A stretch of DNA of 64,000 nt from Rhodocollybia butyracea (Eukaryota; Basidiomycota; Agaricomycetes; Agaricales; Omphalotaceae): assembly GCA_015501585.1 (NCBI GenBank), contig JADNRY010000243.1, positions 29,994-93,993 on the forward strand, written 5' to 3'. The notes below the pieces were generated by a model. It was not told where the DNA came from. It searched no databases and saw only the letters and a program-made list of their open reading frames with translations. Both the position numbers and the translations under genes were made by a program. Each line of letters opens with the position of its first letter. The first letter of the stretch is position 1. Positions 3,860 through 63,409 of the stretch are shown here, one piece after another.

Positions 3860-4402
3860 TGTTGAAACTAGATTACTGCTTATGAGTTGTATCTAATCAG
3901 TAATGTGAGTCGACTAGACACACTTGCTATACGATCGATGAACTGTCAATATATGCTATGTTGAAACTCACCCTCAAACAATAGACACAGCCTCTATGCA
4001 GGTTCATATAGATGTAGTCAATTATGCCATTCACTATTAGTCTTATGATACATAGCTTGTATGTTGCCTTGCAGTACCTATGAACATTACCTATAGAATT
4101 ACCATATGGACTCCATCTTCTAGGGTACATTATGCACATGTATATGCACTATGTTTAGCAGTACGACTCAAGTAGACTCATACATTGTTATAGGGTTTAT
4201 TATATTCTGTAGTATAAATACTGTAGATATTTTCCTGTAACAATAACCAAGAATCCTACTATTTGTCCGGACACTTGTTCTGCTCTCAACAAGCACTCTT
4301 CTATCTCCTGTAACACCCTTACACTCTCAGGTGAGTATGCTGTTGACCTTGTGTTGACTGACTGCTGTTTCGACAAGTTATGGGCCCCGGATTGCTTCAA
4401 CA
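3860..4402 (-). repeat. LTR-like sequence, 543 bases, probably a solo copia-type LTR read on the minus strand
   Basis: The ends are TGTTGAA...TTCAACA, the inverted terminal form of copia-type LTRs. Read on the minus strand it starts TGTTGAAGCAATCCGG and contains a TATTTATA/TATAATAAA-like promoter and polyadenylation region about 210-240 bases in. The flanking five bases differ (CTTAC left, CATGT right), so no target duplication survives, and no RNase H frame lies next to it. Either a decayed solo LTR or an LTR of a truncated element. Confidence 0.5.
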
Positions 4403-4747
4403 CATGTTGTGCCCTCCATTGTGCTTACTGCACTTGGTTAGACAGTGTTCAATGAAGGTCCAACACTCATTCCTGGAGTGTACAAAGTTTGCGTGTTGTG
4501 CATAGCTGGTCATGGTACATGGTAACGTTCATGGATCGCATTTCCCTCCATTCCTGCATTGTTCAAAAATATACATGACTTTGCACACTGACACACACAT
4601 GTATTTACATAGGCACCTGATGATCGAACAAACTGTTTAAGGGCTTTGCTGTGATGGCATTCCCTTTAGGGTTTTATTCCCTGCCAGGTAGACTTGGGGT
4701 CACCGCTATATGTGCATCTGCTGGCAAACTGCAAACAATCATTGGGT
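4403..4747. other. Spacer without recognised gene
   Basis: A purine-rich word (ATGGAGGG, minus strand) lies just upstream of the LTR-like sequence and could be a remnant of a polypurine tract. Nothing else is recognised. Confidence 0.3.
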
Positions 4748-6827
4748 TCAATGCGTGTGACGGCTCTGACCATCACTTCTAATTTGGCATACTCCGGAAC
4801 AATCCCCTCGTTTGTGAGTTGCCTGATAATATTGAAGGGTAATCCCTCAATGAACCGTTTCCGCATTGTTGCATCATCCGGTGTTTGGAGCATCCGTGAT
4901 GCCCATCGTGTAAGTGAGGAATAATAATCCCTCACACCCGTATTGGGTGAATACTCAATAAGGTCAAACTGCTGTGCAGCTTGATGAATGGTCGTTGCTT
5001 GGATGCAATGATGGCGCCTTCAAATGTCCACTTAAGGACAGTGCGGTGTATACCAGCGACTTTGTCGTTATACCAGTCAAGGGCTTTGCCCTGTAGAAAC
5101 ATGCCAAGCACGGCAGTCCGTGTAGCATTGTAATCGTCACCGCACATGCGGTTGACTACCATCCATTGGAGAAGTGACATTAGCCACTGCTCAAAGACAT
5201 CGACATTCGGAGATCCATCATAGACCTCCGGAGATGGAACTTTAAGAGCTTTACGGCTCTCAATGGGAGGGATAGGATTCCCTACCTTATCTCGAATTTG
5301 TTTACGGTACACTTTGTGTACCTTGTGTTTCCATCGGGAACGACGTTCATCGTCACCTGTTGTTTCTCGCATCTTAGATGCAAGTGAACGCAGTATTTTA
5401 CGGTGCTCATTAGGAGTAATTTTACCCTTACGGGTAGCAAATTTGTCTAGCCAAGAGGCATTAGACGATGAGTCAGTATTTGACTCAGTGTCACTTGGGT
5501 CCGATGATTCATCTGACCATGGGATGCGTTTGCGGCCTTTGGATTTAGCACTCTTGTGCTTCCTCCCCCCTTCACGGGATTTTTTGCTAGGCGCTTTTGC
5601 TCCAGCATTATTGCTTGGTCCTGGAAAGGACTCAGCGGGTGGAATGTAAAATCGATCCCAGATTTCTCTGGGAGTAGTCAATTTGTCAACGGGTATTCCA
5701 TCGACATTATATCCCACCATTTGGTCGGGAAGCCCAGATGGCGCAAATCCGAAATCTCAGAGACTGGCATTATGTTGGCGTTGAATCACTATGCAACTCA
5801 CCCAATCTTTAGCTACTCCCAACGGAAGCGGCTGTGGTTGCAACTCGGCCGATACCGTTGGTACTGGCATTGAACTTGGCTCTGGCACATTGCTGGGTGG
5901 CAATTTGGGCAGTCTTACGGTAGTGTGTACTACCGGAGGGGCAACACTTTGTGTCACCGGGGTGATGGATATGGTAGTAGGAACTACCGAAAGGGTACCG
6001 TGTTCCGGTCCCATACTGGAATGATTTCCAGTAGTGTTTGGTACAACTACTGGAGGTGTAATAATATTGGGTACCATTGGCGCCCTTGCAGTAGGGAAGT
6101 ACATTGTACTTTCCTGTGGTGGTATTGCTACTACCTGATTGAAGTTACAAGGTAACTTCAGTTCACTTTTAATGTTCACTGCACTTTGTGGTGAGCAAGA
6201 TTTGGTCACCGGTAATGGCCTGGGACCTCGCAGTGTCAGAGACGCTGCCTCTGCATTGGGACTCTGTCTCATGCGGGATGTGTAGATGGGTGTCGGTATA
6301 GTTACTGACACTGGTGCGTATTCCTGTCGGAATACAGGAACATGATGGGGTGACTTGGTTATCCCTTGTGAATACTGTTTGTCCAACAGTGATTGTTGGA
6401 CTGACGGTGCCTTGGGCACAGTCTCATGCCATTGGCGTACCAAGTTATTTGCCTCGGTAGGAACAGATGGTGCTGCATTGTGCAATACTGGTGGTGTGAC
6501 GGCAGGCCGTCTTGGTGTGGGTGCAGCAATAGTGATTCTATTGCTGTTTCTTGATGAAGAAAGATCTTCTTCATCAGATCGGATGCTAGATCTCAGTTAT
6601 ATTGAGAATACAATTGAGTACTTGTGTACTCTTGTCAAGTGATGCCGCTACATCTCGTAGCGCAGAAGAAATCTCACTTAAACCCTCTCGGGTTGGCTGT
6701 TTCTTACAAATAGTCATAGACTGTTCATTAGGTGGACTTTTGTCCTGCCTGTAGTGCCGTCCTTCAGACGCATGCACAGAATGGGTTGCTGATGCGACTG
6801 AATAGATTGATTGTGGTGACATGTAAC
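4748..6827 (-). pseudogene. gag fragment of the gag-only LTR element family, without LTRs
   Basis: This is a minus-strand copy of the gag region found complete at 21978-24453. Shared blocks include PQSIYSVASATHSV, KSPPNEQ, GLSEISSALRDVAASLDKST, VPSPEVYDGSP, the Retrotrans_gag-like stretch FLQGKALDWYNDKVAGIHRT, and MRKRFIEGLPFNIIRQL. The frame is broken several times (near 6575-6485, 5757-5720 and 4990); near 4999 a 13-base stretch present in the other copy (GTGTCTTTGATCG) is missing. Similarity to the complete copy stops near 6827 on one side and 4748 on the other, and neither flank is the 253-base LTR of the family. It is a displaced fragment or a relative with different flanks. Confidence 0.75.
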
Positions 6828-58626: not shown

Positions 58627-60306
58627 CATCAATCTTGTATAGGAATTCCGATAGGCTTTTGCGTCCCTCTGGCATCTGCCTAGCCATGCAATCTATCAGA
58701 ACAAATTTATCCAGACGAGCTACAATTTCAGGCAAAGGTTGAGGGCTATCTTTGCTGTACTTGCGCACAAGATTGGCTGCATGGATCATTGTGTTGAGAG
58801 TAGTCTCGTGAATGCCTAGAGATTGCCAAAGCATTTTCTTTGTGATTTTCACCTACCGTTAGAGCCCAATCAATCAGATGGAAACTCTGATAAGATCTGA
58901 ATAGTACTTACCTTGGCAGACACATTAGGAGCTCAAACCAACTTTGACAAGAACTCAGTGCACAAGTCCGCAACAAACAACCACAGTTGAACAATTTCAG
59001 GATTTTGCGCTTTGTCGGATCCCCGAAGTTGACTAAAGAGATTGTATCCATTGCATGCTACAACTTGATCAGTGATCCATTCCAAAACTGTTGCCTTATC
59101 ATCTGAGCATTGCTTCTTCAAATCTGGATGGACTTTGTTGAGGTTAGCATGCTTTCTTGCAATATGAAGCGGGATCGCATCCATATCCAATCCCAAGGTG
59201 GCTGGATCAGGAACCAAGCCTTCCTCATCATCTACCAACCAGTCAAAATAGATTTTATTGCAAGTACAAGGAAAGACTCACAATTAATCCCTTCTTCTTC
59301 TTCATGTTTCTGCTTAAGTGAGAGAAGGATGTTACTGACTTGATTTTTGGTGAGACCCTAAGCACCTCATGAGTCAACGAGTGGATCACAGTCATGGAAA
59401 ATCCACGGCTTGCATTTTCAACCATGATATTGATGATCCCATCACTTGCAAGCAGGTACTCAACAGATACAGGAGTGTCAGCAAGTGAAGTTGCGGGCTG
59501 GGAGAACAGAAACGGTTGATAATCTGTTGTGATTTGGTAATGAGGAGTTGAAAGTTTGATAAATCCTGATATGACAAGACTTGTTATAACTTATCTGATT
59601 ATTTAAAGTCAATACGAACCTTTAATTGTGTCGGAAGTTTCATCCAGTAACCTCATGACTTTGTTAGTCTTTACTTTACATGTCCCAAGTGGACAACCAT
59701 CTTGAGAAATATAGATAGGATTGATATGAATATTGAGTGCAATCTGTGCAGGCAGAGTCTCCCTCTTGTCCAACAAACAGACTGTAAAAAGCTGCAGAAA
59801 CTATGCACATTAGTGGGAAATAGTATGCGGCAGATATAAGTACACACTGTGTTCGATACATTCTGGCAAGGGGTGATGAGCCCTTGAGTGGAAGTCTGTA
59901 TGCCACCATCATAGGGTTTAGCAGTGTTATCAGTACCATGACTGCTATTGATACTGCCTGCACTGGTTGCACTCGGCATCATCATAGCTGACGGATTTGG
60001 GCCCAGCTTCGCTGAAGATAGACCTTGACCTCCATGTCTCTTCTGATAACCTTTATTTGATTATAAATGAGAAAAGAACATTGAGACTTACTTTAACAAC
60101 TGTTGTATCCACTGTTATGACTCGATCAATAGTCTCGTCCAAACCTTCACAGTACGTAACTCGGCAGTAAAAATGATAAGAGAAATTAATGAGATTATAG
60201 AGCAAGCCTTTCCGTTTGTTGAAACCGCTAGGCAAAAAAATATATACTCAAACAACTAGGCTCAAGTAAAGTTAGTAACTAGTTTGTAATACAAAACTCA
60301 CAGAAG

Positions 60307-60620
60307 TTATTATTTGGAGATAGCTCGACAAATAATAATAAGATTACCCTCAGAGATGGCTCAACAAGCAGTAATATGAATCAGAACTAATACTCGGAGA
60401 TGGCTCAACAAGTAGTAGTGAGTGTGGTGTCTAATACTCAGAGATAGCTCAACAAGTAATAGGAAGTTGCAACCCGGAGATAGCTCAACAAGTGGCAATT
60501 AAAGAAGTATTTACTAGGAGATAGCTCAACAGGTGAATGTTAGTGGATACAACTTGGAGTTAGCTCAACAAGATGTATAAATGTGTATTGTAGCTTGGAG
60601 ATAGCTCAACAAGATACAAT
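60307..60620 (-). repeat. Array of eight hairpins with constant loop and variable stems (LTR 1)
   Basis: Eight units share GGAGATAGCTCAAC (variants ATGG, TTAG in the tip, CGAC). Each is bounded by arms that differ between units but pair within the unit: TTATTATTT/AAATAATAA, ATTAC/GTAAT, CTA-TACT/AGTA-TAG (twice), TTGC/GCAA, ATTTACT/AGGTGAAT, ATACA-CTT/AAG-TGTAT and ATTGTA-CTT/AAG-TACAAT. Inside the loop GAG and CTC can pair around a four-base tip. Unit spacing is 36-50 bases. Confidence 0.85.
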
Positions 60621-60769
60621 GAGTTGGTCTGGTGATTCACACAAGTGATAACAGCAAACAAGTGGGGGTTTGGATTTAAGAAATAATAAGTCTACTGTAC
60701 ATTGGTAAATCTGGCTTCCTTATATACTGTTTAATATGTACTAGTTAGGAAATGCTGCAGAATGACTAG

Positions 60770-60955
60770 ATTTGAGTCATAACTGCGGAAATGCTGCGGA
60801 TCAGTCAGCATGACTGTGGAATGGTGTGCAATGACTGTTACTGAGTCATTTAAGCAGAACTGCGGATGACTGATGTTGAGTCATTCAGTAGAGTCATGGA
60901 TGACTGATATTGAGTCATTTAGTGGAACCGGAGTTGACTAATAATGAGTCAATAC
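60770..60955 (-). promoter_or_regulatory. Cluster of five AP-1/Gcn4-type sites in LTR 1
   Basis: TGAGTCA occurs five times, in most cases in the form TGACT-N5-TGAGTCA (ATTTGAGTCATAA, ACTGAGTCATTT, GTTGAGTCATTC, ATTGAGTCATTT, AATGAGTCAATA). The site is that bound by Gcn4/CPC1-class bZIP proteins. The cluster lies upstream of the TATATAAGG box on the minus strand. Confidence 0.6.
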
Positions 60956-61142
60956 TGTGTGGAAGGGTCTTTGCAGCTTCCATGGTAATGTGCAGCATTA
61001 TCCCAATTTGTGTTGAGAAGATAAGTAATGAATGTATGTGATAGTGTTAGGTAGTAAAATATTAATGATAGTCATGGTGGTGGTTGTTAATAAATGAAAA
61101 AAGAGTGTGTATATGCCTATAGTGTAGAATCGGGTCATAACA

Positions 61143-61991
61143 TCCACTGGCATAGGTGCAGTAGTAGTATACCCACTACCTTTGTCCAGAAGCACTCCTT
61201 CAAGTGTCTTGACTAGAGTCTTGCTGCCTAGTGATCCTGCACTGCTAGGCCACAGGTGTGGCTGAGCTTGTGCAATCTCCAGAAGCTTTATTCATGTCAT
61301 ACAACTGCAAAAGAAATTAAATAAATAGTACTAAGCTTTAATGGTGTACAGCAGCAATCCAAGCACGTACTGGATCTCTGACAGGCAAAACTTCCTCTCA
61401 GCAACTCCCGGGGCTTGCTGGGCTTGTTCAGACATGATAACTATGCAGCAGGATGATGAGAGTTCAAAGTTAAGACTTAAGACTCAGACCCCTCAAATGG
61501 AGGCAGATCACTTGAGAGATTAGTCGCCATGCCTCGTTTGAGAGCTAGAGTCAAAAAGAAAAAAAACCCTCAATCAATGCTACCAGGAGCATGTCTGGCA
61601 TCAATTGAGGTAAGTGCAAATTATATTATTGCCCATCAATTGAGGGTTGGTACAAGTGACTTTGCCTCAATCAAGGGTTCTCAATTTTGTGCCCCTCCAA
61701 TCAAGGATTCTCAATTCTAGACCCCTCAATTGAGCCTGTGGCATCCCCATTTGATGGTTCATCATTCTGCTGAACTCCCTTCACCTTTGAACAAGGCTTT
61801 CCATGCTCACTCAGGTCAGATTAAGATTGTAAAAGTCATCATAGCCCTGGTATCACTCAATTGAGGTGATAAAGGATCTTGTAAAAGCTCAAATGGCCAA
61901 ACGACAGGTCAAAAAAGCCTCAAAGACCATGAACGATCCAAACGAGGGATAGTCAAAAGCCTCGATTGGCGCTATTGCCAAAACGGGATAG
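61143..61991. other. Spacer between the two solo LTRs with CTCAATTGAGG palindromes
   Basis: The left part contains the first exons of the reverse-strand gene. From about 61565 to 61870 the word CCTCAATTGAGG or a degenerate form (TCAATTGAGG, CTCAATCAAGG) recurs seven or eight times at irregular spacing. No gene of its own. Confidence 0.4.
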
Positions 61992-62192
61992 TGTTATGAC
62001 TCGATCAATAGTCTCGTCCAAACCTTCACAGTACGTAACTCGGTGGTAACAATGATAAGAGAAATTAATGGATAATGGAGATTATAGAGCAAGCCTTTCC
62101 GTTTGATGAAACCACTAGGCAAAAAATATATACTCAAACAACTAGGCTCAAGTAAAGTTAGTAACTAGTTTGTAATACAAAACTCACAGAAG

Positions 62193-62550
62193 TTATTATT
62201 TGGAGATAGCTCGACAAATAATAATAAGATTACCCTTGGAGATGGCTCAACAAGCAGTAATATGAATCAGAACTAATACTCGGAGATGGCTCGACAAGTA
62301 GTAGTGAGTGTGGTGTCTAATACTCGGAGATAGCTCAACAAGTAATAGTGAGTGTGATGTCTAATACTCGGAGATAGCTCAACAAGTAATAGGAAGTTGC
62401 AACTCGGAGATAGCTCAACAAGTGGCAATTAAAGAAGTATTCACTAGGAGATAGCTCAACAGGTGAATATTAGTGGATACAACTTGGAGTTAGCTCAACA
62501 AGATGTATAAATGTGTATTGTAGCTTGGAGGTAGCTCAACAAGATACAAT
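62193..62550 (-). repeat. Array of nine hairpins with constant loop and variable stems (LTR 2)
   Basis: Same order of hairpins as in LTR 1, with one more CTAATACTC...AGTAATAG unit. Differences from LTR 1 often improve or keep pairing, for example ATTCACT/AGGTGAAT here against ATTTACT/AGGTGAAT, and CCCTT/AAG here against CCCTC/AAG. Confidence 0.85.
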
Positions 62551-62684
62551 GAGTTGGTCTGGTGATTCACACAAGTGATAACAGCAAACAAGTGGGGGTT
62601 TGGATTTAAGAAAAATAATACGTCTACTATACATTGGTAAATCTAGCCTCCTTATATACTGTTGAGTATGTATTATTTAGGAAA

Positions 62685-62860
62685 TGCTGCGGAATGACAT
62701 CATAACTGTGGAGCACTGGAATGATGTCATAACTGCGGAGCACTGGAATGATATCATAACTGTGGAGCTGGAATGATGTCATAACTGCGGAGCAGTAAGA
62801 TGACATCATAACTGTGGAGCATCAGAACTGCGGAGTAGTAGAATGATGTCATGGTGTAAC
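62685..62860 (-). promoter_or_regulatory. Cluster of six CRE-like bZIP sites in LTR 2
   Basis: TGACATCA, TGATGTCA and TGATATCA words occur six times in tandem units of about 30 bases (AATGATGTCATAACTGCGGAG type). They occupy the position where LTR 1 has TGAGTCA words. TGATGTCA is one CpG transition away from the palindromic CRE TGACGTCA. Confidence 0.5.
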
Positions 62861-63078
62861 ATGCAGTGACTGGTGTTCAATCATTCTAGTGGAACCGAAG
62901 TTGATTAACAGTATGTTCATGTGTGCAACATTATGCCAAATAATGTAGAGAAAATGAGTAATGAACGTAAAATGTATATGATAAGTAGAAATCTTAATGA
63001 TAGTAGTAGTAGTTGGTTAATAATAATAAAAAAAGATGTGTATATGCTTATAGTTTGGGTATGGGTCATAACAGATAG

Positions 63079-63409
63079 TGTGAAACCTGCAAGACAACGC
63101 AGGTGTTACCAGCAATCAAGCGCCTGCACAAAGAAAAGTGGGCCGCCGCCAAAAGTCTCGCCCGTGACGGCTACCAGCGGTTCCCAGTAACGGCTTCCAA
63201 TTCCGATACATCAATGTACAATTCATGTAAGTGTTAATATTAGTCTACTTGTTATTATAGTTACTATACTTTGTTGTATGAAAGGCTGGTGTGAGACCTT
63301 GTAAAAGGTTGCATGCAGGCCTGTAGTGTACAAATTCTTCTCTTTTAATGTTGTTACTATAATTATGTAGCTATATTTATGGTGCTGCTACCCTATAGTA
63401 AATATTTAC
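63079..63409. other. Continuation of the region interrupted by solo LTR 2
   Basis: A GC-richer stretch at 63085-63190 reads VKPARQRRCYQQSSACTKK in one frame and ends at a stop at 63188-63190. It may be the scrap of an exon. The rest is AT-rich. Confidence 0.3.

Follow-up and report, generated by a model that had tools for sequence, protein, structure and literature searches.

Self-priming of reverse transcription is described for the Tf1/sushi group of long terminal repeat (LTR) retrotransposons (PMC6317226, PMC4600332, PMC7175516). The group includes Tf1, Tj1, Tcn1, and the marY1 clade; marY1 is counted among Tf1/Sushi-related clades (PMC6317226), priming through the 5′ end of the RNA has been proposed for Tj1 (PMC4600332), and LTR structure has been surveyed (PMC3601003). 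Here, we describe two solo LTRs in a 64,000-nucleotide (nt) stretch of the basidiomycete Rhodocollybia butyracea (assembly GCA_015501585.1, contig JADNRY010000243.1, positions 29,994 to 93,993 of the forward strand; this whole stretch is called the window below). The family to which they belong resembles Tf1/sushi elements both in its proteins, with reverse transcriptase (RT), RNase H, integrase, a Tf2-1-like SH3 domain, and a chromodomain, and in having a site after the LTR that is complementary to the predicted 5′ end of the RNA. It differs in what lies between primer and site, namely, a loop of 500 to 700 nt with 5 to 11 repeated hairpins, whereas no such array appears in the available portions of Tf1/sushi descriptions.

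Other structured RNAs offer partial likenesses. As here, a single 5′ leader of Ty1 performs multiple tasks through RNA structure (PMC5454406), but that leader consists of a pseudoknot and two hairpins with complementary apices, and its primer is a tRNA (PMC4974528), whereas the present leader combines a repetitive array of like hairpins with a self-primer. RNA viruses and hepatitis B virus likewise use dispersed packaging signals, several stem-loops with a common short loop motif that is recognized by the capsid protein (PMC7612645, PMC6281560). Those signals, as far as their descriptions were available, are spread over the genome, whereas the hairpins reported here stand head to tail in one leader and are known from sequence alone. 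In clusters of iron-responsive elements, several bulged hairpins stand in one untranslated region, their apex constant and their stems variable. The hairpins reported here share these traits but have another sequence, occur in another organism, and match no Rfam family at gathering score. A preliminary description of this DNA knew of no LTR family with such a layout, and the open-licence literature in PubMed Central, judged by titles and the beginnings of abstracts, agrees with it, containing no hairpin array of this layout in an LTR element.

Two solo LTRs carry arrays of hairpins with a constant apex and changing arms

Within the window, a 14-base core (up to 2 mismatches) occurs 17 times, versus 0.39 times expected by shuffling, and all occurrences lie within two solo LTRs, 8 in LTR1 and 9 in LTR2. 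LTR1 (60113..61142, 1,030 bp) and LTR2 (61992..63073, 1,082 bp) share one orientation, with the minus strand as sense. Both bear the marks of LTR retrotransposons: TG..CA ends (TGTTATGAC..GTCATAACA), a 9-base terminal inverted repeat, and, for each, its own 5-bp target site duplication (TCCAC at 60108-60112 and 61143-61147; GATAG at 61987-61991 and 63074-63078). The preliminary description had reported two such LTRs with 8 to 9 units at this place, as we found them. The array of LTR1 occupies 60303..60623 on the minus strand, its cores starting at plus-strand coordinates 60597 (class A), 60556 (B), 60517 (C), 60476 (D), 60440 (E), 60396 (G), 60352 (H), and 60316 (I). That of LTR2 occupies 62189..62553, also on the minus strand, with cores starting at 62527 (A), 62486 (B), 62447 (C), 62406 (D), 62370 (E), 62326 (F), 62282 (G), 62238 (H), and 62202 (I). 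The nine classes follow one another in a fixed order, and 33 LTR copies yielded 297 units with 64 distinct sequences.

The units had been proposed to be hairpins with a constant loop. The core is constant, but it is more than a loop: its sense RNA has a 4-base loop (C-Y-A-N) on a 3-bp stem (GAG/CUC), together with a 2-base bulge. A typical unit runs from one variable arm through CUUG, the UU bulge, the GAG side of the stem, the C-Y-A-N loop, CUC, and CAAG to the other variable arm. Between the seven LTR2 classes compared, mean identity was 92% in the core and 48 to 54% in the arms, and the four arm pairs quoted earlier as examples of changing yet complementary sequence were all present in the units. 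The preliminary description argued from such pairs against simple tandem duplication; units E, F, and G, however, have near-identical arms and are plain tandem duplicates.

We compared the pairing of each unit's own arms with that of re-paired and shuffled units, a check on which the earlier claim could have failed. Among the 5,040 possible assignments of seven arm classes, own-arm Watson-Crick pairing over arm positions 4 to 10 was the single best in each LTR; when G-U pairs were included, three other assignments matched or beat it in each LTR, and by duplex energy, 8 (LTR1) and 1 (LTR2) were equal or better. In an alignment of 15 distinct units (17 rows), 83.3% of the cells paired in the structure given above were complementary, compared with 73.2% when the 3′ letters were shuffled (reached by 0/500 shuffles) and 32 to 49% when the partners were slid. 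The covariation score of the unit alignment was 0.306, versus 0.154 for shuffled alignments (0/500). Within the 15-unit alignment, neither the number of pairs changed on both sides (reached by 97/500 shuffles) nor the number of further pair types (460/500) was exceptional; RNAalifold predicted 11 pairs, 5 of them with double changes. Mismatches between a unit's own arms are kept in 8 of the 9 classes, class I alone being paired throughout.

A search of 60000-63200 against Rfam 15, likewise suggested at the outset, returned no family at gathering score and three matches up to an E value of 5, all far below that score, including a small nucleolar RNA model over units H and I of LTR1 (16.4 bits versus 75). 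Scanning IMG/VR for the 14-base core gave at least 120 stretches; each of the 80 stretches listed had a single match, which fits chance.

The array lies in a nearly ATG-free leader with a predicted self-primer

Copies of the family that carry gag allowed us to place the array relative to genes. We fetched 30 of 77 gag matches, and every one of these loci had 5 to 11 cores upstream of gag; in 28, both the end of the LTR and the motif at the start of gag could be located, and we refer to these 28 as leaders. We looked for complementarity between the first 20 bases beyond the LTR and the stretch that runs from the TATA box to the array. A primer-binding site complementary to the RNA 5′ end, the mark of Tf1/sushi elements, was found in 25 of the 28 leaders, given the predicted transcript start: the complementarity spans 12 to 13 nt in 24 leaders and 11 nt in one, with 6 to 7 nt in the remaining three. 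In those 25, it begins 32 to 34 bases after the start of the TATA box, where transcription would be expected to start. At the LTR junction, no TGG directly follows the LTR in any of the 28 leaders read. When seven leaders were folded, the central primer positions paired with the site at a probability of ≥0.99 in five.

The leaders measure 539 to 743 nt, and 21 of the 28 lack any ATG. Six of the other seven have a single ATG 4 nt before gag, and one (L052) has an ATG 133 nt before gag. Dinucleotide-shuffled leaders contain a mean of 7.6 to 10.7 ATGs, with zero reached in 0/200 shuffles per leader; the leaders contain CAT 10 to 14 times, and the 650 nt upstream (the unique 3′ region [U3] and some flank) contain 10 to 22 ATGs. 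The six leaders with this ATG (L065 to L070) are all those read of the family with the 749-amino-acid Gag variant described below; their ATG is out of frame, and they are otherwise ATG-free. Because an array that was spliced out would have no need to lose ATGs, we infer that the translated mRNA includes the array and that ribosomes scan through it.

The window LTRs conform to this layout. On the sense strand, a TATA box (TATATAAGG) lies upstream of each array, at 60718..60726 in LTR1 and 62650..62658 in LTR2, both on the minus strand. The predicted transcript 5′ ends, which would act as self-primers, lie at 60682..60693 (LTR1) and 62614..62625 (LTR2), also on the minus strand; compared with the post-LTR site taken from gene-bearing copies, the latter is complementary over 12 nt, and the former has one mismatch. 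Neither LTR has an ATG after position TATA+33. A minus-strand TATA box had been the original ground for placing the array in a transcribed leader; the ATG-free leader and the self-primer agree with this and place the array there more firmly than the TATA box alone. The side of the transcript follows from the genes: the gag frames of full copies L039 and L040 lie on the strand matching the window's minus strand, which is therefore the sense strand, and the transcript should extend across the array.

No array could be recognized upstream of other gag domains in five pieces of 2 kb, but the LTR end was likewise absent from them. Two pieces of another LTR family had only about the first 105 bases in common and no 10-mer occurring three times.

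Sense RNA is predicted to fold better than antisense RNA

The LTR2 array folded better than shuffled sequence (z score, −2.72; 1/100 shuffles as good), and all nine unit hairpins appeared in its minimum-energy fold. We extended the prediction to 25 distinct arrays of gag-bearing copies (the 28 leaders less 3 identical arrays; 40 shuffles each). The mean z score was −2.85 for the sense RNA versus −1.51 for the antisense RNA, and the unit hairpin formed in the sense minimum-energy fold for 189 of 225 units.

Apices and leaders are conserved while gag and U3 diverge

Seven nine-unit copies were chosen from the 28 to compare conservation along the element. Mean pairwise identity was lowest in 350 nt of U3 (74%; minimum, 56%) and over the first 1,000 bases of gag (79%; minimum, 67%). 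It was 89% for the TATA stretch, 95% between the LTR end and gag, 98% within the array, and 99% both between the transcript start and the array and in the remainder of the LTR. Copies L046 and L067 are 100% identical over the array and 350 nt of U3 and 67% identical in gag, which points to exchange of LTRs between elements or element families. Such exchange would fit template switching between copackaged RNAs. It cannot be the source of the constancy of the apex between unit classes.

Variation was then counted over 578 units, some of them from overlapping fetches, so that some LTRs are counted twice. Sites varying in at least 2 copies numbered 0/54 in the apical stem, 2/36 in the loop, 2/18 in the bulge, 19/158 in the paired arm, 8/40 in the unpaired arm, and 19/108 in the linker. 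Of 37 stem variants, 18 kept and 19 broke pairing; among those found in at least 3 copies, 11 kept and 3 broke it. Because the kept changes are mostly of a CpG-transition-like type (10 of the 18, and 10 of those 11), we dropped this comparison as support for pairing. The covariation lies between unit classes; it is an old, shared set of events.

The family is assigned to the Ty3/gypsy chromoviruses and would number hundreds of LTRs

Across the 95.6-Mb genome, the exact 14-base core occurs 1,837 times, split 850 to 987 between the two strands. At about ten units per copy at most, this count means that the family must comprise hundreds of LTRs. A search for LTRs gave 381 first-look candidates, 40 of which were scored, and a pattern bridging the LTR end and the beginning of the internal part has 50 exact matches.

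Copies differ in their genes. Full copies L039 and L040 have LTR pairs that are 100% and 99.8% identical over 1,252 and 1,170 bases. In L039, gag is divided between two frames that overlap, and the second contains a Retrotrans_gag domain. In L040, there is a 749-amino-acid Gag-variant frame (4236-6485, minus) with no Retrotrans_gag match and a CCHC-like motif that was read by eye. No further frame of at least 150 amino acids lies between the LTRs of either copy. The 749-amino-acid variant is present in many copies and probably represents a capsid-less, nonautonomous family; among 5.8 billion proteins, its search gave 6,315 candidates, none at an E value of ≤0.001. A frame for a CHAT-domain protein lies near full copy L040 (8567-9355, minus).

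One copy, on contig C1012, carries a 1,204-amino-acid frame between LTRs 10.5 kb apart. This frame matches, in order and above cutoffs, RVT_1, RT_RNaseH, RT_RNaseH_2, H2C2, rve, SH3_Tf2-1, and Chromo. Upstream of it lies a protease-like frame, with matches to two protease models (E values, 1.6e-4 and 3.5e-4) that remain below their curated cutoffs. By the arrangement in this one copy (RT, RNase H, then integrase and a C-terminal chromodomain), the family is assigned to the Ty3/gypsy chromoviruses. Among the best 120 of 7,557 relatives of its RT are proteins of Lentinula edodes (73%) and Termitomyces (66%) and unnamed proteins of up to 77%.

Enhancer-like arrays and the rest of the window

The two window LTRs have different enhancer-like arrays in U3, followed by repeat and unique 5′ regions (R-U5) of one kind; in both, the sites exceed the shuffled mean at least 50-fold. 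LTR1 has five TGAGTCA sites, presumably bZIP-like, at 60773..60951 (0.094 expected; maximum of 1 in 500 shuffles). LTR2 has in their stead five TGATGTCAT / ATGACATCA sites at 62694..62852 (0.026 expected; maximum of 1 in 500 shuffles). In the rest of the window (1-60000), a Pfam scan of 10 of the 11 stop-to-stop frames of at least 170 amino acids gave no match; the genes there are probably intron split or degenerate.

Discussion

We favor, at a probability of roughly 45%, the explanation that the array is a multivalent protein-binding R-U5 leader that serves packaging and self-priming in a self-priming Ty3/gypsy chromovirus, with a putative protein partner. The hairpins would be repeated binding sites for one RNA-binding protein, which would read the apex (U bulge, GAG/CUC stem, and C-Y-A-N loop), while the stems would only hold the apex up. 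Many weak sites may mark the RNA for packaging, and the hairpins may also aid self-priming by compacting the 500 to 700 nt that separate the primer from its binding site, with unit-specific arms keeping neighbors from mispairing. Ribosomes would scan across these weak, A+U-rich hairpins to gag, which would be why ATGs have been purged from the leader.

A constant bulged apex, stems that matter only as structure, and repetition are what is expected of multivalent protein-binding sites. The likeliest reader would be the element's own Gag, through its CCHC knuckle. We rank the Gag machinery as the first candidate because the array lies between self-primer and primer-binding site in the RNA that would be packaged and because copies without a pol frame or without a recognizable capsid domain keep the array; a host translation factor is the second candidate, and mere compaction is the third. 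The 749-amino-acid Gag variant, which retains a CCHC-like motif and the array without a Retrotrans_gag match, also counts in favor of the explanation. Selection on RNA or single-strand DNA structure, as the preliminary description put it, is supported by arm pairing and by the leader but not by compensated change inside a class. RNA is favored over single-stranded DNA as the structured form because of the leader evidence and the better folding of the sense strand, not because of wobble pairs.

Several observations weigh against this explanation. Its protein partner is one that we infer. Gag differs by a third between copies with an identical array, and a Gag-specific site would need to be read by a conserved part of Gag. 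The identity of the leaders may come from LTR exchange rather than constraint, which weakens the argument from identity alone. Among the 578 units, there is no compensated double change within a unit class, and once CpG types are set aside, 8 stem variants keep pairing and 18 break it; the stem variants are neither proof nor refutation of selection, since solo copies decay freely. Predicted folding is uneven as well: 11/100 shuffles fold as well as the LTR1 array (z score, −1.28), two other arrays fold poorly (L063, −0.15, which we count against the explanation, and L064, −1.03), and in two of the seven folded leaders, primer pairing falls to 0.35 (L043) or is absent with a changed primer (L054). 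Wobble pairs favor neither strand (13 G-U versus 13 A-C cells). Finally, some units are fused through the core, joining the left arm of A to the right arm of B (L201 and L202), H to I (L203), D to an E/F-type right arm (L200 and L201), and, in one of 33 copies, B to C. The fusions in L200 to L203 come from five pieces chosen for odd-looking spacing, and the A/B fusion is common to two copies. By arm cross-scores, the fused combinations have weaker duplex energies than native units. Loss of units by recombination thus happens and can be tolerated, and the existence of fused two-class units means that not every hairpin is needed.

Four other explanations account for parts of the evidence. A host RNA-binding protein might bind the hairpins and tune the translation of gag rather than packaging, as iron regulatory protein does in binding iron-responsive elements. 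The position within an ATG-free leader, the constant bulged apex on free stems, and an array conserved while gag diverges would all suit such a reader, but we think it unlikely, having found no link to any host protein and, in Rfam, no family at gathering score. That the hairpins are a pure structural spacer, which would only shorten the distance from the RNA 5′ end to the primer-binding site and whose core would be a leftover of tandem duplication, appears decidedly unlikely to us: a spacer has no need of a constant apex, and the core is 92% identical between classes whose arms are about 50% identical. This is so even though, in 5 of 7 predicted folds, the self-primer closes a loop that contains the array, the number of cores varies from 5 to 11, and fused units are tolerated.

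A third explanation is a mutational origin without selection. Quasipalindrome correction keeps arms complementary by its mechanism, and a polymerase or reverse transcriptase switching strands in imperfect palindromes could copy arm into arm. Reverse transcription of a hairpin-rich template is part of the element's normal life, and the lack of compensated change inside a class also speaks for this origin; such copying would, however, erase the arm mismatches that 8 of 9 classes keep, and it leaves the invariant apical stem and the ATG-free leader unexplained, so that we hold it to be more doubtful still. Most improbable of the four, in our estimation, is a DNA-level element in which the cores are repeated transcription factor sites and the palindromic arms are incidental or form cruciform DNA. 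The core is a repeated short motif near a promoter, the plus-strand core contains AGATAG, which we take to be a GATA-type site, U3 has other factor-like arrays, and the wobble pairs do not favor the sense strand. AGATAG, however, is changed in nearly all class B units and in most G and H units while the apical stem is kept, the sense RNA folds better than the antisense RNA across the 25 arrays, and neither arm pairing nor the purge of ATGs would be explained.

Beyond the protein-binding leader that we favor, we put forward a wider proposal tentatively, as possible but short of even odds: that this is a modular leader of an undescribed kind. It would be a row of bulged hairpins set head to tail inside the loop between self-primer and primer-binding site, with a single apex read by protein and with covarying stems particular to each unit. 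As a cassette, it would be exchangeable between elements with different gag genes and enhancers, and it might act as a multivalent switch, with translation on one side and, on the other, packaging coupled to self-primed reverse transcription. In our judgment, little is settled about the choice between translation and RNA packaging in LTR retrotransposons or about how a self-primer reaches a site hundreds of bases away. The unit described here, compact and repeated, with free stems below a constant apex, is an RNA that can be tested directly, with structure separable from sequence, and the ATG-free leader provides an example of a long, structured leader through which ribosomes have to pass.

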